Origin: Streptomyces sp. McG3
GTDB lineage: Bacteria > Actinomycetota > Actinomycetes > Streptomycetales > Streptomycetaceae
Direction: 5' to 3'
DNA: 64,000 nt
Assembly (NCBI RefSeq): GCF_018619185.1
Contig: NZ_JAAXYC010000004.1
Span: forward strand, 1-64,000
This document shows, piece by piece, positions 4,395 through 27,600 of this stretch. Every line of letters begins with the position of its first letter. The stretch's first letter is position 1. The translations under genes and the position numbers were made by a program. The notes under the pieces were generated by a model. The model did no database searches. It had not been told where the DNA came from and worked only from the letters and a program-made list of their open reading frames with translations.

Positions 4395-4523
4395 GGCTCC
4401 GCCGCAAGGGCACTCCCACCATTGCTGGGGTCGACTCTGGGGGGCACCCTGATGCACTGATCGATGGGTGGGAGCCAGACTTTCCGGCAACGACCCGACT
4501 TATCGGAGTGGGAAGGTGATGGG

Positions 4524-5714
4524 GTGTCCACCGTCGACAGCGGGATTGCGCCGCAACCCAACGTGAACGATCCGGCGATCTACGACTGGTATCGCATGAT
4601 GCGGGACAACCATCCGGTGCACCAGGATCCGGGTACCGGATGGTGGGTGGTCTACCGTTACGCCGACGCGCGCAATGTCCTGACCAATCCGGGCACGTTC
4701 TCTTCCGAAATGCATCGGATGGGGTTCCCCGAGTCGGGGCTGGAGAGTCTTCCGCAGATGGATCCGCCCCGGCACACGCGCGTCCGGAGGATTCTTGGTA
4801 CCACTTTCACGCCCAGTTCCATCGCGGCGTACGAGCCCCAGATCGTTCGGATCACCAACGAGATACTCGACGACCTCTCCGACCGGGATGAAATCGACCT
4901 CGTCGCTGATCTGGCGTACACCGTGCCCATCGCGGTCATTCTGGAGATCCTCGGCCTGCCGGCCGAGGACCGCCATCTCTTCTACAACTGGGCTCGCAAG
5001 GTCATGAGCGTAACGCCCGAGGAGATGGCGCAGGAGGGATACCTGGAGGCCCTGGGCGAGCTGCAGCAGGAAGCGATCACCTACCTTCGGGAGAAGGTCC
5101 GCTCACGCAAGAACAAGACCGGCGACGACATGCTGACGCGGCTCGCCAACGCCGAACTCGACGGTGATCGACTCACCGAGGACGAAACGGTCAACTTCGC
5201 GAACGTGATGTTCGCCGGCGGCCACATCAGTACGACGATGACCATCGCCAACTCGGTGGATCTTCTTGATCTGAACCCGCAGGCGCAGGCCGACGTGCGG
5301 GCTGACCGGAAGCTGATAGGTCCGGCGGTCGAGGAGGTGCTCCGACATCGGCCTCCGATCACGACCGGGCTGCGTGCATCGACCAAGGATGTCGAGGTTG
5401 CCGGCGTCACGATCCCGGCACACCAGCATGTCGCTGCCAGCTTCTGCTCCGCCAACCGGGACGAACGACAATTCCCCGATCCGGAAACGTACGACATCCA
5501 CCGGAACAGCGAGGGGCGCCACTTCGGGTTCGGCTTCGGGACGCACCATTGCATTGGCAATGCTCTGGGTAGGCTTGAGGCGAGGCTGGTCCTCGGCGTG
5601 CTCTTCGATCGTTTCAAAGAAATCACGGTCGAACGTGACGGCGACCTCGTCTGGGCCATCCCGCCGCAGATGGTCGGCTTCGAGAAGCTGCCGGTCACGC
5701 TGCGCAGAGCCTGA
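4524..5714 (+). CDS. cytochrome P450
   Basis: A 396-residue soluble bacterial P450 (class I, needing ferredoxin and reductase partners not seen here). The heme-thiolate loop FGFGFGTHHCIGNALGR places the cysteine ligand at about residue 343. The K-helix E-x-x-R is in EEVLRHRPP (near 270). The I-helix reads FAGGHISTTM (near 230), so the usual acidic residue before the Thr is not in its standard place, as in a subset of actinomycete P450s. GTG 4524 is chosen: GGAAGG lies 7 bases upstream, while the longer frame from 4464 lacks a good site. It ends 14 bases before a strong hairpin. Its position beside the LAL regulator makes it a likely tailoring hydroxylase or epoxidase of the polyketide, but this is inference. 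Confidence 0.9.
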   Translation: MSTVDSGIAPQPNVNDPAIYDWYRMMRDNHPVHQDPGTGWWVVYRYADARNVLTNPGTFSSEMHRMGFPESGLESLPQMDPPRHTRVRRILGTTFTPSSIAAYEPQIVRITNEILDDLSDRDEIDLVADLAYTVPIAVILEILGLPAEDRHLFYNWARKVMSVTPEEMAQEGYLEALGELQQEAITYLREKVRSRKNKTGDDMLTRLANAELDGDRLTEDETVNFANVMFAGGHISTTMTIANSVDLLDLNPQAQADVRADRKLIGPAVEEVLRHRPPITTGLRASTKDVEVAGVTIPAHQHVAASFCSANRDERQFPDPETYDIHRNSEGRHFGFGFGTHHCIGNALGRLEARLVLGVLFDRFKEITVERDGDLVWAIPPQMVGFEKLPVTLRRA

Positions 5715-10000: not shown

Positions 10001-11428
10001 GTGTCGGTGACGGAGATCGGGCCCGTGAGTCAGCGCCGCAGAGCAGCCGTGGACATCCCCCCGGAGGCTCTGGGAAGCGAGGAGTTCCGAGCGGACCACC
10101 AGGTGCGCTACGCCTACGTGGCCGGCTCCATGTACAAGGCCGTCGCGTCGGAGGACATGGTCGTCCGCATGGGCAGGGCCGGACTCCTGTCGTACTTCGG
10201 CGCGGGAGGGCTGAACCAGGAGCGGACCGCCGCCGCGGTACGGCGCTTCCAGCGGGAACTGGGTGACGGCCCCTGGGGACTGAACCTGCTCGCGAGCCTG
10301 GAGAACCCGGCGAAGGAGGAGGAGCAGGTCGACCTGCTCCTCCGCCACCGGGTTCGCCGGGTGGAGGCCGCCTCCTTCCTGCGTCCGACCGCCGATCTGG
10401 TCCGGTACCGGCTCTCCGGGGTGAGCCAGGGGCGCGACGGCAGGGTGTGCGTCCCCAGCCGGGTCATGGCGAAGGTGTCCAGGCCCGAGGTCGCCGACGG
10501 CTTCCTCGGACCCGCGCCCAGGGAACTGGTCGACGGGCTCCTGGCGGAAGGGCGCATCACCGCGGCGGAGGCCGAACTCGCCGACCGGGTGCCTCTCGCG
10601 GACGACATCGTCGCCGAGGCCGATTCGGGAGGCCACACCGACCAGCGCCAACTGGTCATCCTGCTCCCCGAACTCATCGCCCTGCGGGACCGGACAGCCC
10701 GGAGGTTTCCCGCCGCCGCCCGGATCCGGGTCGGCGCGGCAGGAGGTATCGGGGTTCCCCGCGCGGCCGCCGCGGCGTTCGTGCTCGGTGCCGACTTCGT
10801 GCTCACCGGCAGCATCAACCAGTGCACGGCGGAGTGCGGCACCAGCGATCGCGTCAAGGACATGCTCCAGCGGGCCGAGGCCCACGACATGGCGATCGTG
10901 CCCGCCGGCGACATGCTGGAGACCGGTGCGCGCGCCCAGGTACTCCGGCGCGGTCTGTTCTATCCGGCCCGGGCCAACAAGCTGTACGAGCTCTACCGGC
11001 GCCACGACTCCCTGGAGGACCTGGACCCGCGGACCGCCGAGCAGCTGCAACGCCGTTACTTCCGGAGGAGTTTCGACGAGGTCTGGGAGGAGACGCGCAC
11101 CTACTACCGGCGCGCCAACCCCAAGGCCCTCGCCCTGGCGGAGAGCGACCCGAAGCACAAGATGCTCCTGGTCTTCAAGGCCTACTTCGTGCAGTCCATC
11201 CGGCTGGCCATGAGCGGCTCCGAAGCCCACCAGGTGGACTACCAGATCAACTGCGGACCGGCGCTCGGAGCCTTCAACGAGCTCGTGCGCGGCACGGACC
11301 GCGAGAACTGGCGCGACCGGCACGTGGACGACCTAGGAGAGATGATCATGCGGGGCGCCGCCTCGATACTCAGCGAACGGTTCGAAGCTCTGACGTCCGC
11401 GAACATCCATCGGGGGCAGCGCCCGTGA
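10001..11428 (+). CDS. PfaD-family trans-acting enoyl reductase
   Basis: A 475-residue FMN-dependent TIM-barrel protein of the PfaD/2-nitropropane dioxygenase-like group. In trans-AT PKSs these proteins act in trans to reduce enoyl-ACP intermediates on modules that lack an ER domain. Recognisable parts are GLLSYFGAGGL near the N-terminus, the FMN/phosphate-binding GAAGGIGVPRAAAAAFVLGA, TGSINQCTAECGTS, and the C-terminal PfaD-specific region with YFVQSIRLAMSG. The GTG start has AAAGGAG upstream. Its stop overlaps the AT start by four bases (GTGA), so the two are translationally coupled. None of the PKS modules here has a cis-ER. Confidence 0.92.
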   Translation: MSVTEIGPVSQRRRAAVDIPPEALGSEEFRADHQVRYAYVAGSMYKAVASEDMVVRMGRAGLLSYFGAGGLNQERTAAAVRRFQRELGDGPWGLNLLASLENPAKEEEQVDLLLRHRVRRVEAASFLRPTADLVRYRLSGVSQGRDGRVCVPSRVMAKVSRPEVADGFLGPAPRELVDGLLAEGRITAAEAELADRVPLADDIVAEADSGGHTDQRQLVILLPELIALRDRTARRFPAAARIRVGAAGGIGVPRAAAAAFVLGADFVLTGSINQCTAECGTSDRVKDMLQRAEAHDMAIVPAGDMLETGARAQVLRRGLFYPARANKLYELYRRHDSLEDLDPRTAEQLQRRYFRRSFDEVWEETRTYYRRANPKALALAESDPKHKMLLVFKAYFVQSIRLAMSGSEAHQVDYQINCGPALGAFNELVRGTDRENWRDRHVDDLGEMIMRGAASILSERFEALTSANIHRGQRP

Positions 11429-12288
11429 CACTCATCCACCTCTTCGCCGGTCAGGGCTCCCAACGCGTCGGCATGGGAAGGGATCTGCTCGCCGCCTATC
11501 CCAACCTCGTCCGGCAGGCGGACTCCGTCCTGGGGTACTCGGTCGCCGAACTCTGCCTCGATGGACCCGCCGAGCGCCTCGCGGACACGCGCTACACACA
11601 GTGCGCGGTGTATGTCGTCGACGCTTTGGCGTACATCGATTCCGTGCGGACCAGCGGCCGGATCCCGGAGGCGCTGGCCGGGCACAGCCTCGGGGAGTAC
11701 GCGGCACTCTTCGCCGCCGGCGTCTTCGACTTCCGTACCGGTCTCGAGATCGTCGCCAAGCGCGCGGAGTTGATGGCGGACGCGGGCCCCGGCGCGATGT
11801 CGGCCGTCATCGGGCTGGGCGAGGACCGCGTCCGGGCCCTCCTGGACTCCTCCGGGCTCCCCGTCGACATCGCCAACCTCAACGCTCCGGACCAGATCGT
11901 GGTCTCGGGGCCGCGTGAAGCCGTAGGGGAGGTGCCGGCCCTGATGTCCGGGCACGCCCAGACCGTCGTTCCGCTCCGGGTCAGCGGCGCCTTCCACTCC
12001 CGCTCCATGGCACCGGCCGCCCGTGAGTTCGCGTCGTTCCTCGACGGCTACGTGCTGGCCCGGCTGAAGATTCCCGTCATCGCGAACACCACCGGGCGCC
12101 CTTACGACGACGACATCGCGGGCACCCTGTGCCGCCAGCTCCACTTGCCTGTCCGCTGGAGCGACACGGTCGTCCACCTGCTCGGGCTGCCCGACCCGGA
12201 GTTCCGTGAGATCGGGCCCGGCAACACGCTCACCGGGTTGACCCGGCGCATCCAGGCGTCACTGCGTGCATCGGTCGTCACCGCATAG
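11425..12288 (+). CDS. discrete trans-acting malonyl-CoA:ACP acyltransferase
   Basis: A 287-residue stand-alone AT of the FabD type and the only acyltransferase in the cluster, so it should load malonyl units on the ACPs of all three PKS proteins. The quality motif HLFAGQGSQRVGMG starts at residue 4. The nucleophile is Ser88 in GHSLGEY, and the His is at about residue 191 in GAFHS, where G-A-F-H is the malonyl-CoA-selecting form. The GTG start overlaps the reductase stop by four bases. No second AT-like domain (editing acyl hydrolase) is present, which many trans-AT clusters have; the type II TE at 50810 may fill that role. Confidence 0.93.
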   Translation: MTLIHLFAGQGSQRVGMGRDLLAAYPNLVRQADSVLGYSVAELCLDGPAERLADTRYTQCAVYVVDALAYIDSVRTSGRIPEALAGHSLGEYAALFAAGVFDFRTGLEIVAKRAELMADAGPGAMSAVIGLGEDRVRALLDSSGLPVDIANLNAPDQIVVSGPREAVGEVPALMSGHAQTVVPLRVSGAFHSRSMAPAAREFASFLDGYVLARLKIPVIANTTGRPYDDDIAGTLCRQLHLPVRWSDTVVHLLGLPDPEFREIGPGNTLTGLTRRIQASLRASVVTA

Positions 12289-12342: not shown

Positions 12343-15300
12343 ATGGACTCCTCGTCCGCCACCGGAAGTCTGCATGTCACCCCCCAGGAGGTCCTGGCCT
12401 TCGCCGAGGCCACCGGCGACCGCAGCCCGCTGCACCTGGACGCCGCATACGCTCGGCGCACGCCTTTCGGTGAGCCCGTGGCCCACGGACTGCTGTGCCT
12501 GCTGAAAGTGCTGACGCGGGCTCGCGTGCCACAGGGCCGGACGCTGGCCGCTCTGCGCTCCCGGTTCGCGGCTCCGGTGCTTCCCGGGCAGGACTACCGG
12601 TGCACAGCACGGGAGACCGTCTCGGACGACGGCGACGTGCGAGTCGACTTCCAGGTGCTCGACGGCGACAGGACCGTCATCGAAGGGGAAGCCACCTTCA
12701 CCGGCGGCGAGGTGCGGCCGGCTCCGGCGCGCGCCGCCCGCCCCAGAGCTGCGGCCCGGGCCACGGTGGCCGCTTTCGAGGACATCTCCCCGGGAGATCT
12801 GGCGGGCGGCGACTACCGCCCGGACTGGAAGGCGCTGGAGGCGCTGGTGTCCGGTCTCCGCTTGCCGGACCACGGTGTCGGAGTCGAACACACCGCCGTC
12901 CTGGGCTGGGTCAGCCACGTCGCGGGCATGGAGGTGCCAGGGCGCGCGGCCATGATCAGCGGTCTGGACCTGGTCTTCCTGGAGGCTCCGAAACCACGGG
13001 GGTTCAGGGGACAGGCGGAGGTCACCGACCTCGACGACCGTTTCCGCACGGTCCGGCTGACCGGGGAGGCGAACGCCGGACGGACCGCGGCCGAGGTCGA
13101 GGTGCGTGTCGTCGTGCGGCGTGAGGCTGCGGCGCCGTCGGCCGAGGACGTACGCCGAGAGGTGGCGGATCTGGTCGACGGGCGGCAGCTGGCAGGCCGG
13201 TCCGCCCTCGTCACGGGCGGAAGCCGAGGGCTCGGCGCCGCCCTGGTCCAGGCTCTGGCCGTCGCGGGCTGCACGGTCCACGCGATGTTCCGCGAGAGCA
13301 GGACCGAGGCGGAGGCCCTCGTCACGGCTCTCGGGCGGGACGGTGAGAGGGTCCGCCTGCACCAGGGGGACGCGGCCGACGCCGACTGGTGCCTGCGGAC
13401 AGGGCGGGCCATCGAGTCGGAGTACGGCCCCGTCGACTACGTCTTCCTGAACGCGGGACCGGCAGCGAACTCGCTCGGCCTCCATCCGGCGACGGCCGCC
13501 CGTGCACGCGACCATGTCAGCAACGGCATGCAGCTCGCCCAGGCCCCGCTCAGCGCCTTCGCGGAGGGCCTGGCTCACCGGCAGGGCCGGGTGATCGCCG
13601 TGTCGTCGTCCTACGTCACCTCCCCACGTCGCGGCTTCGGTCACTACGTGGCGGCGAAGAGCGCCTGGGAAGGGCTCGTGCGGGCGAGCGCCGTGGAGTG
13701 CCCCGGCCTCGGGGTCTCCATCGTCAGGCCGCCCAGACTGGCCACCACCTTCGCCGACAGCGTCACCGGGGCGGAGGAGGCGCTGTCCGTCGAACCCGTC
13801 GCCGGCGCGATCCTGCGGCATGTGGCCGGGTGCGCACCGGGCTCCGTGGAGGTGCTGGAGGAGTTCGCCGGCCTCGGCCCGTCGCCCGCCGGGGCCCCCG
13901 GGCCGGACGCCTCCGCCGTATCCCGGGCGGACGGACTCCTGGTCGTGGCCGCGACGTTCACGACGGATCCGCTGCGACCGGTGCTGTCCCACTGGGTCGA
14001 GCGCCTGGGGCTCGACCTCGATGTGCATCTCGAGTCCTACAACCAGGTTTTCCAGGAGCTCCTCGATCCCCGGAGCTCCTTCGCCTCGAACCGCCGTGGG
14101 TGCAACGTCGCGTTGATCCGGCTGGAGGACTGGCCTTCGGGTGCGGCGGGGCGGCGTACCGTCGACGAGTTCGGTGAGGCGGCGTCCGAGGCCGCCGCAC
14201 GGGGGGCCGTTCCGCTGGTCGTCGCCCTGTGCCCGCCCTCTCCGGGAGCTCGGGCGCTTCGCGGTCCCGAACTGGCGGAGTGGGAGGACCGGCTGTCCGC
14301 TGTGCTGGGTGACCGCGCGGGACTCCACCTCATCCCCAGTGCCGAGTGGAGCGGGGCCTACCCGGTGGTGGACCACCACGACGCCGCACGGGAGGAGCAC
14401 GCCCACATTCCCTACACCCCGGCCGCCTGGACAGCGCTCGGCACGTCGGTCGTCCGCACGGTCCACGCGCTTGTCTCCCCGCCGTACAAAGTGCTGGTCC
14501 TGGACTGCGACAACACCCTCTGGAGCGGAGTCTGCGGGGAGGACGGGGCGCGCGGGATCACCATCGGGCCCGCGCGACGACGGCTCCAGGAATGGGCGCT
14601 GACCCAGCACGACAACGGTGTGCTCATCTGCCTGGCCAGCAAGAACGAGGAGGAGGACGTCGACGCCGTCTTCCGGCAGCGTGACGACCTGCTCCTGAGG
14701 CCGGAACACATCACCGCGCGCCGTGTGAACTGGGACCCGAAGCCGGACAACCTCCGGGAGCTCGCACGCGAACTCGGGCTCGGCCTCGACAGCATGGTCT
14801 TCCTGGACGACAACCCCGTCGAGACCGCCGCCGTCCGGGCGGCCTGCCCCGGCGTGCTCGCCCTGACCCTGCCGGCGGACGAGCAGGACCTTCCCGGCTT
14901 TCTCGACCGGTTGTGGGCCTTCGACCGGGGCCGGGTCACCGACGAGGACCGCCGGCGCGGCGCGATGTACCGCGAGGGGAGGTCCAGGGAGACGTTGCGC
15001 GCCTCCACCACGACCCTCGCGGAGTTCGTGGCCGGACTGGAGCTGCGGATCGACGTACACGAAGCCCGTCCGGACGAGCTTGCCCGCGTCGCCCAGCTCA
15101 CCCAGCGCACGAACCAGTTCAACCTCAGTACGGTGCGTCGGTCCGAGCCCGCTCTGCGCGAACTGCTGGACGCCGGGGCACGCTGCCGCGTGGTCGAGGT
15201 CAGCGACCGCTTCGGAGAGTACGGGCTCGTCGGCGCGGCCATCACACGGCCGGGCGCGCAGGTGGTGAACCTGGACACCTTCCTGCTCAGCTGCCGTGTC

Positions 15301-18300
15301 CTGGGACGCGGCGTCGAACACGCGTTTCTGGCCGCGGTCGCCGCCGAGGAAGCGGGGGAGGGGAAGGCGACCACGCTGGAGGCCGTGCAGCGGCCGACGG
15401 CGAAGAATCGTCCGGCCCGGATGTTCTTCGACCAGGCGATGGGAGCGGGAACATCCCGGCCCGGGGCCGTCGACGGGGAGATCGTCCACCGGGCGGATCT
15501 CGGCGTGCTCACCGGACTCACCTTCCGGCCCGACGACGGAGCGGACACCGGTGTCGCGTCTCCCGTACCGGACGCCTCACCGGCGGACGCCCCGCACGGG
15601 ACGGCGGACGCGCAGCGCATCGCGGCCCTGACCGCACTCGCGGTCGACCTCACGGATTCCGCGGCGCTTCACCGATCGGTGACGGGTGACCCGGACGTGA
15701 TCACCGGCCCGGCCCCGCTCCGTTCCCGGAAGTCGGCCCACGTCGCGCTCGACGCGGTGCGGGACGTCCTCAGCGCGTTGCTGCACGTCCCGCGATCCCA
15801 GCTGCGCCGGGACAGCACGATGGAATCCCTGCGGCTGGAATCCCTCCAGATCGTCGATGCCACCGTGGCCCTGGAGAAGCGGTTCGGACGCCTGCCGGGA
15901 ACCCTCTTCTTCGAACACCGCACCCTGGGGGCCCTGGCGGATGCCATCGCTCCGGCCCGCGCCGCCCACCGGACCCCGGCCGGCGCCGGCCCCTCCGGCG
16001 TCCGCGTACCGGCTGCGACCACGCTGCCGCCGGACACCGACGCCATTGCCGTCGTCGGCATCGCCGGCCGCTATCCGGGAGCCGAGGACATCACCCAGCT
16101 CTGGGACAACCTGGTCCAGGGCACCGACTCGCTCGGCGACATCGCCGAGCGCTGGGACCGGCTCGGTACGGCCGCCGCGCGCGTCGCCGCCGACCGCCGC
16201 ACGTCCGGCGGACTCATCGACGGGGTCGACGCGTTCGACTCCCTGTTCTTCTCCATCGCACCGAGCGAAGCGGCGACCATGGATCCGCAGCAGCGGCTCT
16301 TCCTCCAGACGGCCTACCACGCCATGGAGGACGCCGGGCACACCCCACGCACCCTGGGGCGGAACGTCTCCGTCCATGTGGCCTCCATGGGGCCCGACTA
16401 CGCCGTGCTCAATGCCGATGCCGCACTGCGCGGCGGCAGCAGGTATCCGAACAGCGATCTGTACCAACTCGCCAACCGTGTCTCCTACTTCTTCGACTTC
16501 ACCGGTCCGAGCATTGCCGTTGACACCGCCTGCTCCGGCTCCGGCGTCGCGCTCAAGCTCGCCTGCGACACGCTGCGGTCGGGCAGCGCGTCGGCCGCCA
16601 TCGCCGGCGGCGTCAACCTCATCCTGCACCCGGCACGCCGCCTCCAGTACACGGAACTGGGCATGATCTCCCCGACCGGCCGGTGCCGGCCGTTCGGCGA
16701 GGGCGCCGACGGCATGGTCACCAGCGAAGGCGTCGGCGCCGTCCTGCTCCGGCCGTTGAGCGCCGCGTTGGCCGACGGCGATCACATCTACGGCGTCATC
16801 AGGTCGGTGGAGACCAACAGCGGTGGCCGGACGGGCGGATTCACCGTACCCAGCCCCGACGCGCAGGCGGCGCTCATCGCCAGTGCGCTCCGCCGCGCGG
16901 ACGTCGACCCCGCGACGATCGGCTACGTGGAGGCGCACGGCACCGGGACACCGCTGGGCGACCCCATCGAGATCCGGGGACTCACCACGGCCTTCGGTAC
17001 GGAGCTGCCCCGGGCGTCCATACCGATCGGGAGCGTCAAGGGGAACATCGGCCACACCGAGGCGACGGCCGCTGTCGCCGGGCTCACCAAGACCCTGCTC
17101 CAGTTCGAGCACCGCACCCTGGTGCCCTCGTTGCACGCGGCCGCGCCGAATCCGGTCATCGACTTCGCGGCGACGCCCTTCCACGTCCAGCAGACCGTCG
17201 CCGACTGGAGCACCGGCAGGCACGATGCGCCGCGGCGCGCGGCGCTCAGCTCCTTCGGCGCCGGCGGAGTCAACGTCCACATGATCCTGGAGGAGGCGCC
17301 CAGCCCCCGGCGGGCCGACGCAGCGGCCCACCCGGGAAGCGACCTGCTCCTCCTCTCCGCACCGGACGAGGAGCGGCTGCGGCTGATGGCCGGGCGGCTC
17401 GGCTCCTGGGCGCGGGCCGCGGGCCGGCGCACATCCCTGGCTGACATCACGCACACACTGCGTGTGGGCCGAGCCGAATTCGATGCTCGTCTGGCCGTCC
17501 CGGTCAGCGGTCACCAGGCGTTCGTGGAGTGCCTCGACCGGCTGGCCGACCCGGCCGCGGATCTCGCCGAAGCGGTGGGCGAGGCCGGCGGAAGCCTCGG
17601 CCGGGTGACCCCCGGGCAGAGCCTGGCCGATGTCTTCGACGGCAGCCCCGACATGACCGAGGTGCTGCGCGGCCTGGCAGAGCGCGGCGACCTCGCCGCC
17701 CTCGGCCGACTCTGGTGCCAGGGGGCGGCTGTCGACTGGCAGGCGCTCCTCGGGGCGGAGGACCGCCGCCGGGTCTCGCTGCCCGGGTTCCCGTTCCGGC
17801 GCACCCGCCACTGGCTGCCGCGGGCCGAGCCGACGCCCGGCCGACGCCCGGCGGAACCTTCCGGCGAGGCCGCAGCAGTGACGTACTACGCCCCGCACTG
17901 GGCCCCCGAGTCCGACGGGCCGACTCCCGCCCGCACCGGACGGCACGTGATCGTCCTCGGAGCCGACGGCCCCTGGACACGGGAGGCCGACGGACGGGTC
18001 GCCGACGCCTCCGACCTGCTCGGGCACACGACCGAGCCCGGAACCCCCCTGGTCGTCGTCGACCGACGTGGACTCGACGCAGCGGGCGGCGACACCCCGG
18101 CTGAGCTGCCCCGTGAGATCGAGACCCTCCGGCTCCTGGCCCGGATGGCCGACGACGGGCGTCAGGTGACCTACGTCTGCGTGGACCGAACCGGCCGGCG
18201 TGACCCCGGCAGCGCGCTGGTCCCCGGCTTCGGCCGTGCGCTCGCACAGGAGAGTCCGCACATCCGGACCCTGCGCGTCGAAGTGTCCGGGACAGCGCAG

Positions 18301-21300
18301 CCGCCGACTCTCCCGGCCGTTCTCGACGAGGTGGCTCGCGGCACCGCCGAGGTGCTGTACGACGGGGAGCGCCGGGTCCGCAGATGGCAGCGGGTCGCCC
18401 GGGCCGTCACCGCCGAGGCTCCCTTCGCAGCGGGAGGCCACTACCTGATCACGGGGGGAGACGGCGGTATCGCGCGGCTCCTGACCGAGCACCTCACGAC
18501 CCGGTTCGGGGCATCGGTGACCCTGCTCGCGCGCACGGAGGCACAGCCCGGTACCGACGGGCCCCGCCCCGCGGAGCCGGCCGTAGGAGGCAGCGTTCTG
18601 CGGCTGCGGGCCGACGTCTGCGACGCCCGTTCGCTGGAGCGGGCCCTGCGGGCCGCGCGTGAGCAGCACGGGCCCGTCCGGGGCGTCATCCACGCGGCCG
18701 GTGTCCTGCGTGACGGAGCGGTGAGGGACACGACCGACGAGGAGACCTCGGCGGTCCTGGCCCCGAAGGTCCGGGGCACACGGCTGCTCGACGAGGCGAC
18801 CTCCGGGGACGAGCTCGACTTCTTCCTCGTCATGTCCTCGTTCGTCGGCACGTTCGGCAACAGGGGACAGGCCGCCTACTGCGCGGGCAACCGCTATCTC
18901 GACGCGTTCGCCGAACACCGCGCGGCCAGGGCGGTCCGAGGCGAGCGGCACGGCCGGTCGATATCGGCGATCTGGCCGCTGTGGGAGCAGGGCGGCATGG
19001 AGATGCCGCCCGCCGTGCGGCAGTTGACCGCCGTGACCGTGGGTCTGGAACCGATCGACACCCCCACGGCGCTGGCCGCCTTCGAAGACGTCGTAACGCT
19101 GGGAGCGCCCGTGGTGCTCATCGGCCGGGGCACGCCCGACAGGGTCACCGCGGCCCTCACCGCCCTGGAGCCGGCGCCCGATGCCGTGGTGGGTCCGGCG
19201 GCCCCGGCGCGAGAGAGCGACGCGTCGGACCGGGACGTGCTCCGTGGGTGGCTCCGGAGCGAGGCCGCGGCTTTGGCCGGTGTCCCCGCCGAACAGGTCG
19301 ACACGGCAGCCGATTTCGGCGCGTACGGATTCAACTCCCTCCTGTTCACCGACTTCACCAACCGCATCAACGCAAGGTTCCGGCTGGCCCTGACCCCTGT
19401 CGTGTTCTACGAGGCCCCGACGATCGACGCGCTGGCCGGAGAACTGACGTGCCGTCATGGCGCGTCGTTCACCGCCGACCACGAGCAGCCCGCATCGCGG
19501 GCCACATCCGACGTCGCCTCGCCGCACACGGGCTCCCGGACGCCGTCACTGAAGGACGAGCGGCCCTCCTCACCCGCGGTCGCGGTGATCGGGATGGCCG
19601 GACGCTTTCCGGGCGCGTCGGACCTGGACGCGTACTGGTCCCATCTCCTGGCGGGCCGGAACCTCGTCGGGCGTGCCGCGGCCGGCCGGTTCGGCGAACT
19701 GCGGCCCGTCGGCGGATTCCTGGACCGGGTACTGGCCTTCGACGCCGGGTTCTTCGGGGTCTCCCCGCGTGAGGCACGGCTGATGGACCCCCAGCAGCGG
19801 CTGTTCCTGGAGGAAGCCTGGCACGCCATCGAGGACGCGGGCACGGCTCCCCGCTCCCTGGCCGGGAGCCGGACCGGCGTGTTCGTCGGCGCGACTCTGT
19901 CCGACTACGCCGAGCTTCTCCACCGGTCCGCCGAGGAGGTGGCCGCCCACAGCGTCACCGGACACGTCCAGAGCATCATCGCCAACCGGCTGTCGTACCT
20001 GCTCGACCTGCGTGGCCCGAGCGAGGTGGTCGACACAGCCTGCTCCAGCTCGCTGACCGCTCTGCACCGGGCCCTCAACGCCCTGGCGGCGGGCGAGTGC
20101 GACCTGGCCGTGGCCGGCGGTGTCAACGTCCTGTTCTCCCCGCAGTGGTTCACCTCCCTGGACGCGGCGGGCATGCTGTCGGCCAGCGGACGGTGCTGGG
20201 CCTTCGACGAGCGGGCCGACGGATTCGTCCGGGGCGAAGGCGTCGGGGTCGTCGTTCTCAAACCCCTGGACGCGGCCCTCAGGGACGGGGACGAGATCCG
20301 GGCGGTCATCAGGGGAAGCGCGGTCAACCACGGAGGCAGGGCTCACTCCCTCACCGCCCCCAACCCGGAGGCCCAGGCGGACGTCGTCGCCACCGCGCTG
20401 AAGCGGGCCGGCCTCGCGCCCCGTTCCGTTTCGTACGTCGAGACCCACGGAACGGGGACGAAGCTCGGCGATCCGATCGAGGCCGCCGGGCTCACCAAGG
20501 CGTTCGGCGGCCCCGCGCCCGCACCGTGGTGTCACCTCGGGGCGGTGAAGGGAAACCTCGGCCATCTGGAGTCGGCGGCCGGCATGGCCGGTCTGCTGAA
20601 GGTTCTCCTGGCGCTGCGACACCGCACCCTTGCGCCCAACGCGGTCGGCGATCGCCCCAACCCTCATCTGCGCCTCGCGGACGGGCCGTTCGAGGTGCTC
20701 ACCGAACCGCGGGCCTGGCGTCCCGCGGACGACTCCGGCACGCCGCTCCCGCTCCGGGCCGGCGTGAGCGCCTTCGGGTTCGGAGGAGCCAACGCCCATG
20801 TGGTGGTCGAGGAGCCGCCGACACGCCGCGCACCCGAGGCGGACCGGACGACTCGGGACCGGGACGGCCACCTGGTTGTGCTCTCCGCGACGGACACCGT
20901 GCGGCTGGGGGAGTATGCCCGGCTGCTGCGGGACAGCGTCGCGCGGGCGACAGTCCCGCTGGCGGATCTCGCCTACACCTCCCGGGTCGCCCGGGACGCG
21001 CTGCCGGTACGGCTGGCGGCCGCGGCCGTCGACCACGACCACCTGCTCACGCTGCTGGACGCCTACCTCGCCGGCGAGGACGCCGACGGGCTGTTCACCG
21101 GTGACAGCGCGCCGGAGGCAGCACCGTCCCAGGGCGTCCGCCGTGAGGCCGTCGCCTGGGTGACCGGGGCGGACATCGACCGCACACCCGATCCGGCCCG
21201 TCGCCGTGTGCCGTTCCCGCTCTACCCCTTCGACCACACCACGGAGCACGGACCGATGGCGGAAGCCGACCCGGACGGACGACCGGCCGCACCGAGCGAG

Positions 21301-24300
21301 CACACCGACAACCCGCTCGCCGCCCCCGTACCGCAGTTGCTGGCACGGCGCTGGATTCCGCAGCCCGCCCCGGCCCCGGAGACCGACCCTCGCCGCCCTT
21401 CCTGTGTTCTGGTGATCGGCCGGGAAGCGGAGGCGTCCTTCGCCGAGGCCCTCGCCGGATACGACGCGATGCACTGGATCGTCGTACGCGAACCGTCCAG
21501 GCTTCCGGCCCTCTCGGCCGACCAGTACGAGATGGAGTTCGACGACCACGGGGCCGGACAGCGGGCGGCGGCTGACATCCTTGCCTCCCACCCGGGGCCT
21601 TTCTGTCTGGTCGACCTGGTCGACGCCACGGGCGGGATGGTCCCCGACCGGGAGAACGCCCGTCTGGGGCTGCTGAAGGGCTTGCTGGACGACGGTCGCA
21701 CGGCTGAGCTGCGCCTGGTGCACCTGCGCCGGACGGCCGGTTCGGTGACGAGCGAGGGGCAGCCGGACACCGGGGTGGGCGGAGCCAGGCTGGCCGGTCT
21801 GGTGCGTGCGGTCGGGGCCGAGCACTCCGCCGTTCGAGCCGTCACGGTCGAGACTGACGGGGGCGACCTGGCCGCCGGACTGGACCGAGCGCTGCGGGAG
21901 TTGGGCACCGCGGGGCAGGAGCCCGAGGTCCGCCGGCGCGGCGGGGTACGGGAGGTGGCCCGGTTCTCGCGGGTGGCCCCCGAAGCCGCCGCGCGGCCCG
22001 GTGCCCTCGGCGCGTTCACCCTGAGCGCGGAAAGGCCCTACCTCATCACCGGCGGTACCGGCGGTCTGGGGCTGGCGGCGGCTGAGCTGCTGGTGGCGCG
22101 CGGAGCCAGGAAGCTGGTCCTCACCGGACGCCGGGAACTGCCTCCGCGTCAGCTCTGGTCCGAGACGCCGGAGAACGCCTGGTGGGCGGACCGGGTCGCG
22201 GCCCTGCGCCGCCTGGAAGCCGCGGGCGCCGACATCCTGCTGCATAGCGGCCCGCTCCGCGGCGGCACGGAGACGGCACGCCTGCTGGCCGACGTACGAC
22301 AGCGGATGGGCCGACCCGCCGGTGTGCTCCACTGCGCCGGATCAGTCGCCCCGACGCCGGCGTTCGTCCGCAAGCCGTTGGACGAGATCCTGTCGTGCTG
22401 GGAACCGAAGGGGAGCGGGCTGGCCGAACTGGACCGGGCGCTCACCGAGGACGAGCCGGACTTCGTCGTCCTGTACTCGTCACTCTCCGCCGCCGTGCCC
22501 GCGCTGGGCGCGGGACTCAGTGACTACGCGGGAGCCAACGCCGCGCTCGACGCGTACGCCGGGTACGCCGCGCGACGCGCAGCCGCTCGCGGGTCGCGCA
22601 CCCACTGGGTCTCCATCGGCTGGGGGAGCTGGTCGGGAACGGGAATGGGCGAAGTCACCGGCCCCCGCTACCGCGGCCTCGGGCTCTCGGCGATGACACC
22701 GGAACAGGGTCTCGGGCTGCTCGACGCCGCGCTGTCCGTGACGGGACATCCCCAACTGCTGGCGGTGGTGGGCGAACCCGACGCGGCCAGGACGCTCCAC
22801 CGGCCCGAACCCGTCGACGCCGCGCGCCGGTCGCCCGGGACCACGACCACGAAACCGGACCTGCCGGTGCCGGGCACGCCGATGGACACCAGCGGCCGGG
22901 ACGACTTCGACGAGCTGAAGGCGCGGTGCTCGGCCCATATCACCGAGACCCTCGCCGCGACGCTGCTCCTCGACCGGGACCGTGTCCGGCCGGACAGCGG
23001 ATTCGCGGACCTGGGTGTCGATTCGATCCTGATCGCCGGCATCGTGAGGGCCCTCGAACCGCTGGCGGGCGCTCCCCTGGAGCCCTCGGTCGTCCTCGAA
23101 CACCCCAGCGTTTCCCGGCTCGCCGAACACCTCTGCCTCAGCCACCCCGAGGGAGTCGCCCGCTGGGCCGGACGCGACCGCACCCAGTCCGCTTCGGACC
23201 CGGTCCCGCCCGTACCGGCCACGCCGCCGAGCACGGCCACCGCGATGCCGCTCGCGGTCATCGGCATGGCGGGCCGCTTCCCGGGCGCCCCCGACACGGA
23301 ACGGTTCTGGGACCTGCTGCGCCGAGGCGGTTCAGGGGTGACGGAAGTGCCCCGGTCCCGCTGGGACGTGGCGACGCTGTACGCCCCGGAACACGCCGAA
23401 GGCCGGAGCATCAGCAAGTGGGGCGGGTTCCTCGACGGGATCGAGGAGTTCGACGCCGACTACTTCGGGGTGGCGCGGGAGCACGCCGCCCACATGGACC
23501 CGCTGACACGCCTGTTCCTGGAGGTCGCCGAGCAGACGTTCGCGGACGCCGGATACCGAGGAGAGGAACTGGCCGCCGGACGCGTCGGCGTCTTCGTCGG
23601 CTCGGGCACGAGCAGCTACGGCGGCAGGATCACCGTCCCGCACCGGGCCACCGCCACGGGACTCAACCCGAACTTCATCGGAGCCCACCTGGCGCACTTC
23701 CGCGATCTGCGCGGCCCCAACCTGGTGGTCGACACAGCGTGTTCGTCCTCGCTCACCAGCCTGCACCTGGCCCGCCAGGCGCTGCAGCTCGGGGAGTGCG
23801 AGACGGCTCTGGTCGGCGGCGCCGACCTGATCCTGGACGAAAGTCCCTACCTCTCGCTCAGCGCGGCACGCGCCCTGTCGCCGAACGGCGTCTGCCGGGT
23901 CTTCGACGCCCGAGCGGACGGGTTCGTGCCGGGAGAGGGCGTGGGAGCCGTCCTCCTCAAGCCCCTGGACAGGGCTCTGGCCGACGGCGACCGGATCTAC
24001 GGCGTCATCGAGGCCACGGCCATGAACAACGACGGCCGCACCATGGGTCTGACCACGCCGAACCCGCAAGCACAGCAGGCTGTGGTGCGGGACGCCCTGC
24101 GGCAGGCGGGCACGGACGCCTCGACGCTGTCGTACGTGGAAGCGCACGGCACCGGCACCATGATCGGCGATCCGATCGAGCTGAAGGCGCTGACCGGGGT
24201 GTTCGACGAGGCCACGGCCGAGCGCGGATTCTGCGCCGTGGGCAGTGTGAAGTCCAACGTCGGGCACCTGCTGATGGCGGCCGGAATGGCCGGCCTGCAC

Positions 24301-24660
24301 AAGGTGCTCCTCTCCCTCCGGAACGAGGCCCTTCCGCCCACCCTGCACTGCGAGCACCCCAATCCGCGGTTCGCCTTCGAAGCGTCCCCGTTCCGGCTCC
24401 AGCGCGAGCTGCAGCCGTGGACCCCCCGGAACGGAATCCGGCGGGCGGGCATCAGCGCCTTCGGATTCGGCGGCACCAACTGCCATGTGGTCCTGCGGGG
24501 GCTGACCGATTCCGAACGCGCCGCCCGCACCACCCCGCGCAGTCCGCTGCCTACTCCGGTGTTCCGCCGGACGCGGCACTGGATCGAACGGTCCGCGACG
24601 CCCGCTCCCCTGCCCGTGGACGACCCCCGTCCTTTGCTCCAGCTGGAGGAACTGATCTAG
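12343..24660 (+). CDS. trans-AT PKS 1: FkbH loading unit, two KS-KR-ACP modules, terminal KS
   Basis: A 4105-residue modular PKS without AT domains. Loading region: MaoC-like hotdog (about 12-122, with TGDRSPLHLD and FGEPVAHG), a second, degenerate hotdog (145-262), an SDR/KR-like reductase (283-475; TGGSRGLG and a Y-x-x-x-K in HYVAAKSA), FkbH (532-1025; HAD motif LDCDNTLWSG at 719, then a GNAT-like tail with TNQFNLS and GEYGLVG), and ACP1 (Ser1167). Module 1: KS1 (1233-1650, Cys1397, His1532), KR1 (NAD motif TGGDGGIA near 2036), ACP2 (Ser2332). Module 2: KS2 (2410-2825, Cys2567), KR2 (TGGTGGLG near 3236), ACP3 (Ser3561). KS3 (3635-4055, Cys3800) ends the protein. KS1-KS3 keep Cys-His-His. 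The sequence GAGAGGA precedes the ATG. The stop is two bases before the PKS2 start, and module 3 continues there. Confidence 0.95.
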   Translation: MDSSSATGSLHVTPQEVLAFAEATGDRSPLHLDAAYARRTPFGEPVAHGLLCLLKVLTRARVPQGRTLAALRSRFAAPVLPGQDYRCTARETVSDDGDVRVDFQVLDGDRTVIEGEATFTGGEVRPAPARAARPRAAARATVAAFEDISPGDLAGGDYRPDWKALEALVSGLRLPDHGVGVEHTAVLGWVSHVAGMEVPGRAAMISGLDLVFLEAPKPRGFRGQAEVTDLDDRFRTVRLTGEANAGRTAAEVEVRVVVRREAAAPSAEDVRREVADLVDGRQLAGRSALVTGGSRGLGAALVQALAVAGCTVHAMFRESRTEAEALVTALGRDGERVRLHQGDAADADWCLRTGRAIESEYGPVDYVFLNAGPAANSLGLHPATAARARDHVSNGMQLAQAPLSAFAEGLAHRQGRVIAVSSSYVTSPRRGFGHYVAAKSAWEGLVRASAVECPGLGVSIVRPPRLATTFADSVTGAEEALSVEPVAGAILRHVAGCAPGSVEVLEEFAGLGPSPAGAPGPDASAVSRADGLLVVAATFTTDPLRPVLSHWVERLGLDLDVHLESYNQVFQELLDPRSSFASNRRGCNVALIRLEDWPSGAAGRRTVDEFGEAASEAAARGAVPLVVALCPPSPGARALRGPELAEWEDRLSAVLGDRAGLHLIPSAEWSGAYPVVDHHDAAREEHAHIPYTPAAWTALGTSVVRTVHALVSPPYKVLVLDCDNTLWSGVCGEDGARGITIGPARRRLQEWALTQHDNGVLICLASKNEEEDVDAVFRQRDDLLLRPEHITARRVNWDPKPDNLRELARELGLGLDSMVFLDDNPVETAAVRAACPGVLALTLPADEQDLPGFLDRLWAFDRGRVTDEDRRRGAMYREGRSRETLRASTTTLAEFVAGLELRIDVHEARPDELARVAQLTQRTNQFNLSTVRRSEPALRELLDAGARCRVVEVSDRFGEYGLVGAAITRPGAQVVNLDTFLLSCRVLGRGVEHAFLAAVAAEEAGEGKATTLEAVQRPTAKNRPARMFFDQAMGAGTSRPGAVDGEIVHRADLGVLTGLTFRPDDGADTGVASPVPDASPADAPHGTADAQRIAALTALAVDLTDSAALHRSVTGDPDVITGPAPLRSRKSAHVALDAVRDVLSALLHVPRSQLRRDSTMESLRLESLQIVDATVALEKRFGRLPGTLFFEHRTLGALADAIAPARAAHRTPAGAGPSGVRVPAATTLPPDTDAIAVVGIAGRYPGAEDITQLWDNLVQGTDSLGDIAERWDRLGTAAARVAADRRTSGGLIDGVDAFDSLFFSIAPSEAATMDPQQRLFLQTAYHAMEDAGHTPRTLGRNVSVHVASMGPDYAVLNADAALRGGSRYPNSDLYQLANRVSYFFDFTGPSIAVDTACSGSGVALKLACDTLRSGSASAAIAGGVNLILHPARRLQYTELGMISPTGRCRPFGEGADGMVTSEGVGAVLLRPLSAALADGDHIYGVIRSVETNSGGRTGGFTVPSPDAQAALIASALRRADVDPATIGYVEAHGTGTPLGDPIEIRGLTTAFGTELPRASIPIGSVKGNIGHTEATAAVAGLTKTLLQFEHRTLVPSLHAAAPNPVIDFAATPFHVQQTVADWSTGRHDAPRRAALSSFGAGGVNVHMILEEAPSPRRADAAAHPGSDLLLLSAPDEERLRLMAGRLGSWARAAGRRTSLADITHTLRVGRAEFDARLAVPVSGHQAFVECLDRLADPAADLAEAVGEAGGSLGRVTPGQSLADVFDGSPDMTEVLRGLAERGDLAALGRLWCQGAAVDWQALLGAEDRRRVSLPGFPFRRTRHWLPRAEPTPGRRPAEPSGEAAAVTYYAPHWAPESDGPTPARTGRHVIVLGADGPWTREADGRVADASDLLGHTTEPGTPLVVVDRRGLDAAGGDTPAELPREIETLRLLARMADDGRQVTYVCVDRTGRRDPGSALVPGFGRALAQESPHIRTLRVEVSGTAQPPTLPAVLDEVARGTAEVLYDGERRVRRWQRVARAVTAEAPFAAGGHYLITGGDGGIARLLTEHLTTRFGASVTLLARTEAQPGTDGPRPAEPAVGGSVLRLRADVCDARSLERALRAAREQHGPVRGVIHAAGVLRDGAVRDTTDEETSAVLAPKVRGTRLLDEATSGDELDFFLVMSSFVGTFGNRGQAAYCAGNRYLDAFAEHRAARAVRGERHGRSISAIWPLWEQGGMEMPPAVRQLTAVTVGLEPIDTPTALAAFEDVVTLGAPVVLIGRGTPDRVTAALTALEPAPDAVVGPAAPARESDASDRDVLRGWLRSEAAALAGVPAEQVDTAADFGAYGFNSLLFTDFTNRINARFRLALTPVVFYEAPTIDALAGELTCRHGASFTADHEQPASRATSDVASPHTGSRTPSLKDERPSSPAVAVIGMAGRFPGASDLDAYWSHLLAGRNLVGRAAAGRFGELRPVGGFLDRVLAFDAGFFGVSPREARLMDPQQRLFLEEAWHAIEDAGTAPRSLAGSRTGVFVGATLSDYAELLHRSAEEVAAHSVTGHVQSIIANRLSYLLDLRGPSEVVDTACSSSLTALHRALNALAAGECDLAVAGGVNVLFSPQWFTSLDAAGMLSASGRCWAFDERADGFVRGEGVGVVVLKPLDAALRDGDEIRAVIRGSAVNHGGRAHSLTAPNPEAQADVVATALKRAGLAPRSVSYVETHGTGTKLGDPIEAAGLTKAFGGPAPAPWCHLGAVKGNLGHLESAAGMAGLLKVLLALRHRTLAPNAVGDRPNPHLRLADGPFEVLTEPRAWRPADDSGTPLPLRAGVSAFGFGGANAHVVVEEPPTRRAPEADRTTRDRDGHLVVLSATDTVRLGEYARLLRDSVARATVPLADLAYTSRVARDALPVRLAAAAVDHDHLLTLLDAYLAGEDADGLFTGDSAPEAAPSQGVRREAVAWVTGADIDRTPDPARRRVPFPLYPFDHTTEHGPMAEADPDGRPAAPSEHTDNPLAAPVPQLLARRWIPQPAPAPETDPRRPSCVLVIGREAEASFAEALAGYDAMHWIVVREPSRLPALSADQYEMEFDDHGAGQRAAADILASHPGPFCLVDLVDATGGMVPDRENARLGLLKGLLDDGRTAELRLVHLRRTAGSVTSEGQPDTGVGGARLAGLVRAVGAEHSAVRAVTVETDGGDLAAGLDRALRELGTAGQEPEVRRRGGVREVARFSRVAPEAAARPGALGAFTLSAERPYLITGGTGGLGLAAAELLVARGARKLVLTGRRELPPRQLWSETPENAWWADRVAALRRLEAAGADILLHSGPLRGGTETARLLADVRQRMGRPAGVLHCAGSVAPTPAFVRKPLDEILSCWEPKGSGLAELDRALTEDEPDFVVLYSSLSAAVPALGAGLSDYAGANAALDAYAGYAARRAAARGSRTHWVSIGWGSWSGTGMGEVTGPRYRGLGLSAMTPEQGLGLLDAALSVTGHPQLLAVVGEPDAARTLHRPEPVDAARRSPGTTTTKPDLPVPGTPMDTSGRDDFDELKARCSAHITETLAATLLLDRDRVRPDSGFADLGVDSILIAGIVRALEPLAGAPLEPSVVLEHPSVSRLAEHLCLSHPEGVARWAGRDRTQSASDPVPPVPATPPSTATAMPLAVIGMAGRFPGAPDTERFWDLLRRGGSGVTEVPRSRWDVATLYAPEHAEGRSISKWGGFLDGIEEFDADYFGVAREHAAHMDPLTRLFLEVAEQTFADAGYRGEELAAGRVGVFVGSGTSSYGGRITVPHRATATGLNPNFIGAHLAHFRDLRGPNLVVDTACSSSLTSLHLARQALQLGECETALVGGADLILDESPYLSLSAARALSPNGVCRVFDARADGFVPGEGVGAVLLKPLDRALADGDRIYGVIEATAMNNDGRTMGLTTPNPQAQQAVVRDALRQAGTDASTLSYVEAHGTGTMIGDPIELKALTGVFDEATAERGFCAVGSVKSNVGHLLMAAGMAGLHKVLLSLRNEALPPTLHCEHPNPRFAFEASPFRLQRELQPWTPRNGIRRAGISAFGFGGTNCHVVLRGLTDSERAARTTPRSPLPTPVFRRTRHWIERSATPAPLPVDDPRPLLQLEELI

Positions 24661-24662
24661 CC

Positions 24663-27600
24663 ATGGCGGACAACCTGAGTCCCGAGTACACCGAGGACCT
24701 CCTGAGCACCCTGGCGGGCCGACGCGCGACGACGACGATCGACGCCGAGGACGCGGCCGTGCGCGATCACTTGGTGCACGACGTTCCCGTGCTGCCCGGC
24801 GTCTTCCTCCTCGACCTCGTGCTCCGCCTGGTGGGCCGGGCCGGAGTCGACCCCGCGGCCGTGCAACTGCGGCGCGTCACCTTCCTCGCTCCCGTCCTTG
24901 GCACCGCCGAAGGACGCCGGATCGACGTGGAGATCGGTCCCGGCGGCACGGGGCGGCTGCCCGTCACCGTGCGCAGCAGGCCCGCCGGCTCCGACGGGGC
25001 CTGGGAGACCAACTGCCGCGCCGAGATCCACCCCGCAGCCCGCGAACCCCGGCCGGGGCGCGTCGATCACGTCGTGCTGGAAGCCGCGGGCACCGAGGTC
25101 GTCGATGTCGAGGACCTCTACGGTCTCGCACGGCGGATCGAGATCCGGCACCGCGGATTCATGAAGGCGACCGGTCTGGTGCACGTGGGCCGGGACCACG
25201 CCCTGGCCCGTATGCGTGTCGCTGCCGAGGCCGAGCCCTATCTGGAGCGGTTCCACGCCCACCCGGCGGTGCTCGACTTCGCCACCCTGGTGCCGATGCT
25301 GCTCCTCCGACAGGACCGGCGCGCCGACGCCGATCACGCCTTCATTCCCATCTACGTCGATTCCTTCCACGCCACCAGCGGCGTCGGGGCGGAGAACCTC
25401 GTCCACGTGCCGGGGCCGGTGACAGGGCGGCTGGACGGCGAACTGTTCGAGGCGGACCTGGAGGTGTGCTCACTCGACGGAACCGTCGTCGCACGACTCG
25501 GTGGCTTCCGGGCCAAGCGGGTACGCTCCGCGGATCTGATCACCCACCGGCCCCCGCAGACCGGGAAGCAGCGCGATGGGGCGACCACTCCCTCGCACGC
25601 CGCCGCCGACACGCCCCGCCCCCGTGCCGGGGGTCTTCGCGAGACCGTGGAAGCGCTGGTGGCGGCCAAGCTCGGGCTCGACCCGGACGAGATCGACCCC
25701 GACCGCGGCTTCTACGACCTCGGACTGAACTCCCTCGACCTGCTGGGCATCGCCGACGCTCTGGAGGACGGGCTGAGCACGGAGCTCTACCCGACGCTGC
25801 TCTTCGAGTACCCGACCGTGCGCTCCCTCGTCGACCACCTCGGCGGGATCGGCCTCGGAGCGCCGGTCCAGGAGGAGACCGCGCCGACTGCCCCGGTGAC
25901 GGCGCCCCCGCCCGCACGCCGGCCGTCGGCGGCTTCGCCGGCCGGGGAGGAAGGGCACCGCGAACCCGTCGCGATCGTGGGCATGGCGGGCCGCTACCCG
26001 GGGGCCGCGACGGCCGAGGACCTCTGGGAGGTGCTGCGCGACGGCGTCGACCAGGTCACCGGCGTCCCCCGTGAGCGCTGGGATGACACCGCCCAGACCG
26101 GGGCCTTCTGTGCGGGCGTGGCCGACTTCGACGCATCCTTCTTCCATCTGTCCGCCGAGCAGGCGCTGACGATGGATCCGCACGAACGCCTCCTCCTCCA
26201 GACCGCGTGGGAAGCGCTGGAGAACGCCGGACACACCCCCGAGGGACTGGCGGAACAGACCGGCGGAGCGGTCGGGGTGTTCGCCGGGGCGATGTGGAAC
26301 GACTACCAGCTGACGGGGCTCGACCGGTGGCGTGGTGGAGGGGGCGAGATCGTCGGATCGTGGTCCTCCGCCCTCACCAACCGGATCTCCTACGCCTTCG
26401 ACTTCGAAGGGCCCAGCGTGACCGTGGACACCGCGTGTTCCGCGTCGCTCGCCGCACTGCACCTCGCGGTCCAGAGCATCCGGCGCGGCGAGTGCCGGGC
26501 CGCTTTGGCGGGAGGCGTGAACCTCTCGCTGCACCCGTACAAGTACCTGCGGCTCGGGGAACTCGGGCTGCTCTCCGAGAGCGGTCGGTGCCGTCCCTTC
26601 GACGCTGAAGCCGACGGCTACGTCCCCGGAGAAGGGGTCGGCGTCGTCGTCCTCCGGCCGCTCGCCGACGCACTCGCCTCCGGGGATCGCGTCCTCGGGA
26701 TCGTCCGGGGCTCCGCGCTCCGGCACAGCGGGCGGACCGGTGGCTACACCGTGCCCAGCCCCGACGCACAGGCCAAGGTGATCTCCGCTGCCCTCACCGA
26801 CGCGGACGCCACGGCCGACACCGTCGGCTACGTGGAGGCGCATGCGAGCAGCACGACGCTGGGCGACCGGATCGAGGTGGAGGCGCTCACCTCCGCCTAC
26901 CGGCAGCACGGTGCCGTCACCCCCGGCGCCTGCGCCATCGGATCGGCCAAAGGCACCATCGGGCACCTGGAGGCCGCCTCGGGGATGGCCGCGCTGGCCA
27001 AGGTACTTCTGGCCCTGCGGCACCGGACGATCCCGGCGGGGCCCGGCATCGGCCGCCCCAACCCCGGGATCTCCTTCGACGGAACTCCGTTCCGCCTGCC
27101 CGCGCACGAGGAGCCATGGGCCGCCCCGGTCGACCCGGCGACCGGCGCCGTGGGCCCCAGGCGGGCCGCGCTCAGCACCTTCGGCGCGGGCGGAGCCAAT
27201 GTCCACCTCGTCGTCGAGGAGTTCACCCAGGCCGCGCCCCCGCCACCGGCCCACGGGGCCGGTCAACCCCGCACCGTACCGCTGTCCGCGCGGACCGAGG
27301 ACGAGCTGCGTCGACAGGCGCACCGACTGGCGGTGCACCTCCGGGCCGCTGCCGGACCGTGCCTCGACGACGTGGCGCACACTCTCCGGGCCGGCCGCCG
27401 GCCGATGGAGCACCGACTGGCGGTCGTGGTGCGAGACCTCGACGAACTCGCCGCGAGCCTCCAGGACTTCGCCGACGGGCGGGCGCCCGGGTCGCCGCTC
27501 CACACCGGCCGGGTGCGCCCCGGCCGGAGCGGCCACGGCGTCGCCGCACCCGACGAGGCCGCTCTGGCCGGACTCTGGGTCGGCGGAGAGCTCGCAGCGT

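Follow-up and report, generated by a model that had tools for sequence, protein, structure and literature searches.

A fused hotdog, reductase and FkbH loading unit predicted to supply a lactyl starter to a trans-acyltransferase polyketide assembly line in Streptomyces sp. McG3

For FR901464, He et al. reportedly described in 2014 a starter dehydratase acting on glycerate together with an alpha-ketone reductase, a DH*-KR* pair said to yield L-lactyl-acyl carrier protein (L-lactyl-ACP), and a similar route was reportedly found in lankacidin biosynthesis. The loading of bryostatin (BryA) and oxazolomycin (OzmB) also uses FkbH. For lankacidin, excerpts of PMC6162330 propose that 1,3-bisphosphoglycerate is the source of a lactoyl-ACP starter and describe a hybrid nonribosomal peptide synthetase/polyketide synthase (NRPS/PKS; LkcA), a discrete dehydratase (DH; LkcB), an assembly-line protein (LkcC) and an amine-oxidase family protein (LkcE). 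Here we analyze the loading region of PKS 1, one of three PKS proteins encoded in a 64,000-nucleotide stretch of Streptomyces sp. McG3 (contig NZ_JAAXYC010000004.1, positions 1 to 64,000), hereafter the window. Upstream of the first ketosynthase (KS1), residues 1–1196 of PKS 1 hold a MaoC-type hotdog domain, a degenerate hotdog, a short-chain dehydrogenase/reductase (SDR), an FkbH domain and ACP1. Homology to known cassettes makes it very probable that this region is a cis-acting lactyl-ACP starter unit.

PKS 1 is one open frame of 4105 amino acids (12343–24660, forward strand). Pfam finds three PP-binding stretches in the protein, the best at residues 2303–2366. The motif LRLESL at residue 1163 marks the stretch that precedes KS1 (cysteine motif at residue 1393), and by this motif we assigned it as ACP1, the putative partner of FkbH. 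A preliminary description of the locus had named all five domains ahead of KS1, predicted a glyceryl-to-lactyl conversion on ACP1, and called both the domain order and the MaoC-type hotdog notable. Profile searches and structure prediction matched the hotdog and SDR regions to the MaoC and SDR families, with the hotdog dyad (D26/H31) and the SDR Ser-Tyr-Lys residues present, and all five domain assignments held up, that of the second hotdog as a predicted fold.

The first hotdog matches Pfam MaoC_dehydratas at residues 9–99 (E 2.7e-13 for the whole protein, 7.3e-15 for residues 1–286 alone) and has 5cpg, 3ir3 and 1pn2 as relatives in the PDB. Searched alone against Pfam, the second hotdog stretch gave no match at E<=1. 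An AlphaFold model of residues 1–264, built from four orthologues (pLDDT 88.4, pTM 0.88), aligned, across its length, with MaoC hydratases of the double-hotdog type such as 5i7n (Z 20.9 and 2.9 A over 235 aligned residues, model range 1..259). Further whole-length matches were 4v12 (Z 20.5) and the mesaconyl-CoA hydratase 8hgn (Z 19.0), and the human MFE-2 hydratase 1s9c followed with Z 17.6 over 214 aligned residues. At the level of predicted fold, then, the degenerate second hotdog is genuine, and the model predicts that both hotdogs together form one hydratase-like double-hotdog fold with the D/H dyad in its first half only. We rejected a PKS-type DH identity for the hotdogs because MaoC double hotdogs give the best matches over the whole length. 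The DH domains 5hst, 5hqw and 7zmf of trans-acyltransferase (trans-AT) systems also appear among the Foldseek matches, as a shared fold would lead one to expect.

Pfam adh_short spans residues 288–472 of PKS 1. In a model of residues 1–512 (pLDDT 80.2), the SDR matched 2jah_A with Z 26.6 over 228 aligned residues and classical SDRs with Z of about 26. Its key residues are G292, G296 and G298 in the cofactor motif, S421 and S422, Y435 and K439. The FkbH domain (residues 715–1032) scored 287.4 bits against TIGR01686, for which the cut-off is 146.65, and its HAD part matches the solved structure 3slr. It carries the motifs LDCDNTLW (residue 720; HAD DxDxT type), SCRVL and GVCGEDG. Both HAD aspartates, the cysteine of LDCDNT and the cysteine of SCRVL are invariant in all 13 FkbH sequences that we aligned.

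Relatives of this unit were found in several samples. A contig scan with the hotdog-SDR query returned 15 loci, four of them full relatives (L013–L016): Streptomyces anulatus JCM 4721 (99% identity), S. poonensis (65%), S. boncukensis (44%) and S. longispororuber (37%). The other 11 (L017–L027) match part of the query only, either hotdog or SDR, and were dropped. A plasmid scan gave 18 matching records, 10 of which were listed and five examined; it brought in plasmids of S. anulatus NBC 01759 (99.6%), S. griseofuscus, Streptomyces sp. NBC_01224, S. atratus and, as a partial match over residues 186–558, Ensifer canadensis. With the double hotdog as query we added three genomes of the same genus (G499, G382 and G450) and two of 398 Burkholderiaceae genomes. 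By tblastn, hotdog-SDR and FkbH stand in series in all relative loci except S. atratus (query residues 2–492 in Ensifer). The double hotdog is rare in the genus: at E<1e-12 it occurs in 6/295 sampled genomes, counting the window's own, its 99% copy G353, G499, G382, G450 and G073. At the same threshold it was found in two of 101 genomes of the first genus sample (the window genome and G073) and two of 246 in the class sample (the window genome and G209, which matches residues 8–116 only). The genus (101, 295) and class (246) samples overlap. Some match at E<=0.001 was present in 100 of the 101 genomes, the others being weaker than 1e-10 and mostly single MaoC domains. Among 369 Gammaproteobacteria none had the double hotdog at E<=1e-17, which says nothing on tartrolon producers, as none are known in that sample.

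The relatives come in two arrangements. Hotdog-SDR and FkbH are fused and followed by a PKS in one open frame in the window and at nine other loci: the S. anulatus plasmid, S. poonensis, S. boncukensis (where the contig ends shortly past the ACP), G499, G450, G382, Ensifer, G892 and G878. This recurrence means that the order is not a matter of chance; it also means that the order is less notable than the preliminary description held, and the MaoC-type hotdog is likewise usual among the relatives found and common to lankacidin-type cassettes. In S. longispororuber, the S. griseofuscus plasmid pSGRIFU1 and Streptomyces sp. NBC_01224, the cassette is split into neighboring genes for a hotdog-SDR protein (499 and 504 amino acids in two annotated records, a 554-amino-acid open frame in S. 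longispororuber), an MFS protein, a discrete ACP, a discrete FkbH (540 amino acids) and a PQQ-type beta-propeller protein. The hotdog-SDR of PKS 1 shares 34–37% identity with the split versions over 494–500 aligned positions. The split cassettes adjoin a gene for condensation, adenylation, peptidyl carrier protein and KS domains (read in S. longispororuber only), and the S. griseofuscus and NBC_01224 loci also carry a discrete DH, a KS gene, an acyltransferase (AT) and an FAD oxidoreductase nearby. By gene order, we read the three split loci as putative lankacidin clusters, and the AT gene of the two plasmid loci is presumably lkcD. A title in the reference list of PMC7296167 assigns the final lankacidin oxidation to a quinoprotein dehydrogenase, a role that fits the PQQ-type gene beside the split cassette.

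We aligned 14 hotdog-SDR units and 13 FkbH sequences, the S. atratus locus (L036) contributing no FkbH row; the 99% copies of the window (L013 and G353), G073 (a 5649-base contig, by its length the same as L015) and the S. atratus records H5 and H6 were left out of the counts. D26 is kept in all 14 units and H31 in 13, the exception being S. atratus with a tyrosine. S421, S422, Y435, K439 and the glycine-rich G292/G296/G298 of the SDR are kept in 14/14, as are G195, M196, P199 and G200 of the second hotdog. The hotdog dyad and the SDR S-Y-K are therefore intact in every FkbH-paired copy (13/13), down to 26–29% identity. Around the S. atratus hotdog-SDR, tblastn (E<=1e-8) detected no FkbH within flanks of about 51 and 43 kb. 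With H31 lost and no FkbH nearby, S. atratus provides a natural contrast, though a single one. Pairwise identities of hotdog-SDR and FkbH across the 13 loci are correlated (Mantel r 0.962), and none of 5000 permutations reached this r. Set side by side, the fused, split and decayed copies suggest that hotdog-SDR and FkbH function together as a single unit.

Homology points to the following route. FkbH would take a glyceryl group from 1,3-bisphosphoglycerate, strip its phosphate and load it onto ACP1. The double-hotdog dehydratase, through its active first half, would then eliminate the C3 hydroxyl of glyceryl-ACP to give an enol that tautomerises, as we infer, to pyruvyl-ACP, and the SDR would reduce the alpha-ketone of pyruvyl-ACP to lactyl-ACP. 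By precedent, the lactyl group would be L-configured. Its acceptance by KS1 would leave a methyl carbinol at the chain end, the terminus that the preliminary description had predicted. Hotdog dehydration followed by SDR reduction, turning glyceryl-ACP into lactyl-ACP, is the reading with the most support, given the homologous cassette in lankacidin-like loci and the conserved catalytic residues.

Other uses of the unit are much less probable. FkbH and an ACP form glyceryl-ACP in the tetronate and methoxymalonate pathways proposed in excerpts of PMC7489565, so that ACP1 might hand on glyceryl without modification, the outcome in tetronate and other FkbH-based pathways, with the hotdog and SDR as remnants. 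The conservation of their catalytic residues in all FkbH-paired copies, and the loss of the catalytic histidine only in the one copy without a detected FkbH, make this very improbable. We give as little credence to a pyruvyl starter, whereby the unit stops at pyruvyl-ACP or the reduction takes place elsewhere: the SDR S-Y-K and glycine-rich residues are present in every unit tested, and excerpts of PMC6162330, which leave pyruvoyl-ACP open for lankacidin, also report the lactoyl intermediate as the only form accumulating in an lkcE mutant of the producer. The usual SDR asparagine was not recognized in the alignment, which would favor a pyruvyl starter. It is most improbable that the hotdog-SDR serves an extender unit or another ACP while FkbH supplies a building block of the methoxymalonyl type. 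Methoxymalonyl-ACP pathways do use FkbH (PMC7489565) and a SAM-dependent methyltransferase is encoded in the window, but the hotdog-SDR is fused directly to FkbH-ACP1 ahead of KS1. Furthermore, the acyl-CoA and hydroxyacyl dehydrogenases of the FK520 set are unnamed among the 15 window genes (5 + 10) scanned besides the PKS set, a scan that did not cover every open reading frame (ORF). We rejected the methoxymalonyl extender reading on these two grounds.

Some observations weigh against the lactyl-ACP route. By eye, the SDR helix-4 position expected to hold asparagine has V, V, L and F in four aligned sequences. The cysteine of GVCGEDG is kept in 10 of the 13 FkbH sequences and missing in three; if the acyl-carrying cysteine is common to all 13, it would be, of the residues tested, that of LDCDNT or that of SCRVL. 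The three split loci owe their lankacidin label to gene order and to the known make-up of the lkc cluster, and the records do not name lankacidin. Part of the correlation between hotdog-SDR and FkbH reflects shared ancestry (species history).

The pairing of hotdog-SDR with FkbH helps to spot lactyl-starting pathways elsewhere, for example on the Ensifer plasmid, in Burkholderiaceae and in other Streptomyces. A 391-kb linear plasmid of S. anulatus NBC 01759, classed as mobilizable (NZ_CP109126.1; L033, L060), bears a PKS cluster 99–100% identical to that of the window. In Ensifer canadensis, plasmid pT173a (classed as conjugative) encodes a fused hotdog-SDR-FkbH PKS (L037, 7425–17077), and after it comes a 23.8-kb gene with an NRPS annotation (L051), possibly a lactyl-started pathway in a rhizobium. 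In the two Burkholderiaceae genomes (L054, 14974 onward; L056/L057), PKS proteins of roughly 5000 amino acids contain the fused loading unit, and their product may be of the FR901464 type. The S. atratus homologue (L036, 14953–16449) lies amid NRPS and glycosyltransferase genes, and the change of its catalytic histidine suggests a repurposed or decayed copy. The KS/ORF layouts of G450 (four KS cysteine motifs in its second frame) and G382 differ from that of the window, and Ensifer differs more. The fused relatives therefore need not share a product, and we rejected on this layout evidence the idea that every one of them makes the same compound.

PKS 1–3 form a trans-AT assembly line (Table 1). 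Their nine KS domains have an intact HGTGT motif in seven cases and a degenerate one in KS4 (nt 26835) and KS8 (nt 43460); the orthologous cluster of G499 also has nine KS domains, degenerate at the same two places (HASGT and QATGS). KS4 and KS8 are probably non-elongating and, if so, seven elongations on a C3 starter would give a C17 chain. The KS1-ketoreductase (KR) and KS2-KR modules are predicted to leave two hydroxyls, and KS3-DH-ACP-KS4(0)-KR-ACP is predicted to act as a dehydrating pair. Likewise, KS5-methyltransferase (MT) would introduce an alpha-methyl, KS6-KR a hydroxyl, KS7-DH-KR-MT with the trans-acting PfaD reductase a saturated, methylated unit, and KS8(0)-ACP-KS9-ACP an unreduced carbonyl. 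The MupA-type monooxygenase could add an alpha-hydroxyl at a presumed site. The line ends in tandem thioesterase (TE) domains (47246–48090), the first with GHGLCG in place of GxSxG (Ser to Gly) and the second with an intact GCSFG; the G499 pair has the same pattern (GHGLAG, GCSFGG). The seemingly inactive first TE may help dimerization.

We take each half of an aplasmomycin/boromycin-type macrodiolide to bear a C2 oxygen, a C3 hemiketal, a C4 methyl, a C7 oxygen, a C8 gem-dimethyl, C15/C16 oxygens and a C17 methyl. The predicted C17 chain fits such a half, apart from two mismatches: no KR was seen for the C9 oxygen, and there are two MT domains versus three C-methyls. On balance, we lean toward a C17 chain dimerized to a boron macrodiolide of this type. 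Labeling studies decades ago are said to have assigned a glycerol-derived C3 methyl-carbinol starter to aplasmomycin. If the prediction is true, the fused glycerate-to-lactyl loading unit would be the genetic explanation of that starter; if the product reading is right, these are starter genes of a classical boron antibiotic family. Whatever the product, the loading unit ties the entire assembly line to one specific starter that can be tested. Boron macrodiolides are described in excerpts of PMC7274485 as symmetrical or semisymmetrical dimeric esters of monomers with two vicinal hydroxyls and a pyran, and excerpts of PMC13029266 give marine S. griseus as the source of aplasmomycin and D-valine as a component of boromycin. 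The domain scans reported no adenylation domain in PKS 1–3, and the genome was not searched for a valine-attaching gene. On the S. anulatus plasmid, a gene with a condensation domain lies about 17 kb past that of the monooxygenase. In open-access literature listings we noticed no description of a gene cluster for boromycin or aplasmomycin, which is no proof of absence.

Table 1. Coordinates of the loading unit, assembly line and accompanying genes in the window.
Feature	Coordinates	Strand	Basis and remarks
Cytochrome P450 of the cluster	4464..5714	+	Profile match; 87% in S. poonensis, 82% in G499
PfaD-type trans-acting enoyl reductase	10001..11428	+	TIGR02814, 627.7 bits
Trans-acting malonyl-ACP acyltransferase	11425..12288	+	TIGR00128, 282.5 bits
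Hotdog 1, MaoC/R-hydratase type (DH*)	12343..12705	+	Residues 1–121; PF01575; dyad D26/H31
Second, degenerate hotdog	12775..13122	+	Residues 145–260; without GDxxxxH dyad; double-hotdog fold of model
SDR ketoreductase (KR*)	13183..13878	+	Residues 281–512; Pfam adh_short; 2jah_A match
FkbH glyceryl transferase/phosphatase region	13930..15438	+	N-terminal stretch 530–712 and FkbH domain 715–1032; TIGR01686
ACP1	15715..15930	+	Pfam PP-binding; Ser motif LRLESL, residue 1163
KS1-KR-ACP-KS2-KR-ACP-KS3, remainder of PKS 1	15931..24660	+	Pfam domains and motifs
PKS 2	24663..34880	+	DH-ACP-KS4 (HASST, probably non-elongating)-KR-ACP-KS5-MT-ACP-KS6
PKS 3	34877..48769	+	KR-ACP-KS7-DH-KR-MT-ACP-KS8 (QATGS, probably non-elongating)-ACP-KS9-ACP-TE-TE; ACP places partly by eye
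MupA-type FMN luciferase-like monooxygenase, candidate alpha-hydroxylase	48777..49901	+	TIGR04020, 416.9 bits
SAM-dependent methyltransferase	49957..50751	+	Profile match; 74% to G499 orthologue

Two neighboring genes at 8915–9415 and 9447–9959 encode proteins of 166 and 170 amino acids without a Pfam match; the S. anulatus plasmid cluster has both in the corresponding position. Outside the cluster are a gene for a PIN-domain protein (PF13638; 59331–60161) and, downstream of it, a long open frame, ATPase/helicase-like by eye, that runs off the window.

The preliminary description had invoked the bryostatin loading region; the closest precedent is instead the DH*-KR* pair of FR901464 and lankacidin. 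The FR901464 system reportedly shares a dehydratase acting on glycerate and an alpha-ketone reductase for the starter unit. The Mad14/Mad7 methoxymalonyl-ACP and tetronate FkbH systems differ in that they go on by oxidation or tetronate formation and not by dehydration and reduction. The lankacidin-type cassette has homologous hotdog-SDR (34–35% in the 14-row alignment) and FkbH (41–42%) proteins with the same catalytic residues. The lankacidin pathway reportedly ends in an oxidation by a quinoprotein dehydrogenase; the scan of 15 other window genes named no such gene. In the lankacidin-type loci the cassette consists of separate genes, whereas in PKS 1 it is fused with the PKS in one polypeptide. 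The glycerate-to-lactyl chemistry and the cassette are already known, and what is new here is that the cassette is fused and stands at the head of another kind of assembly line.

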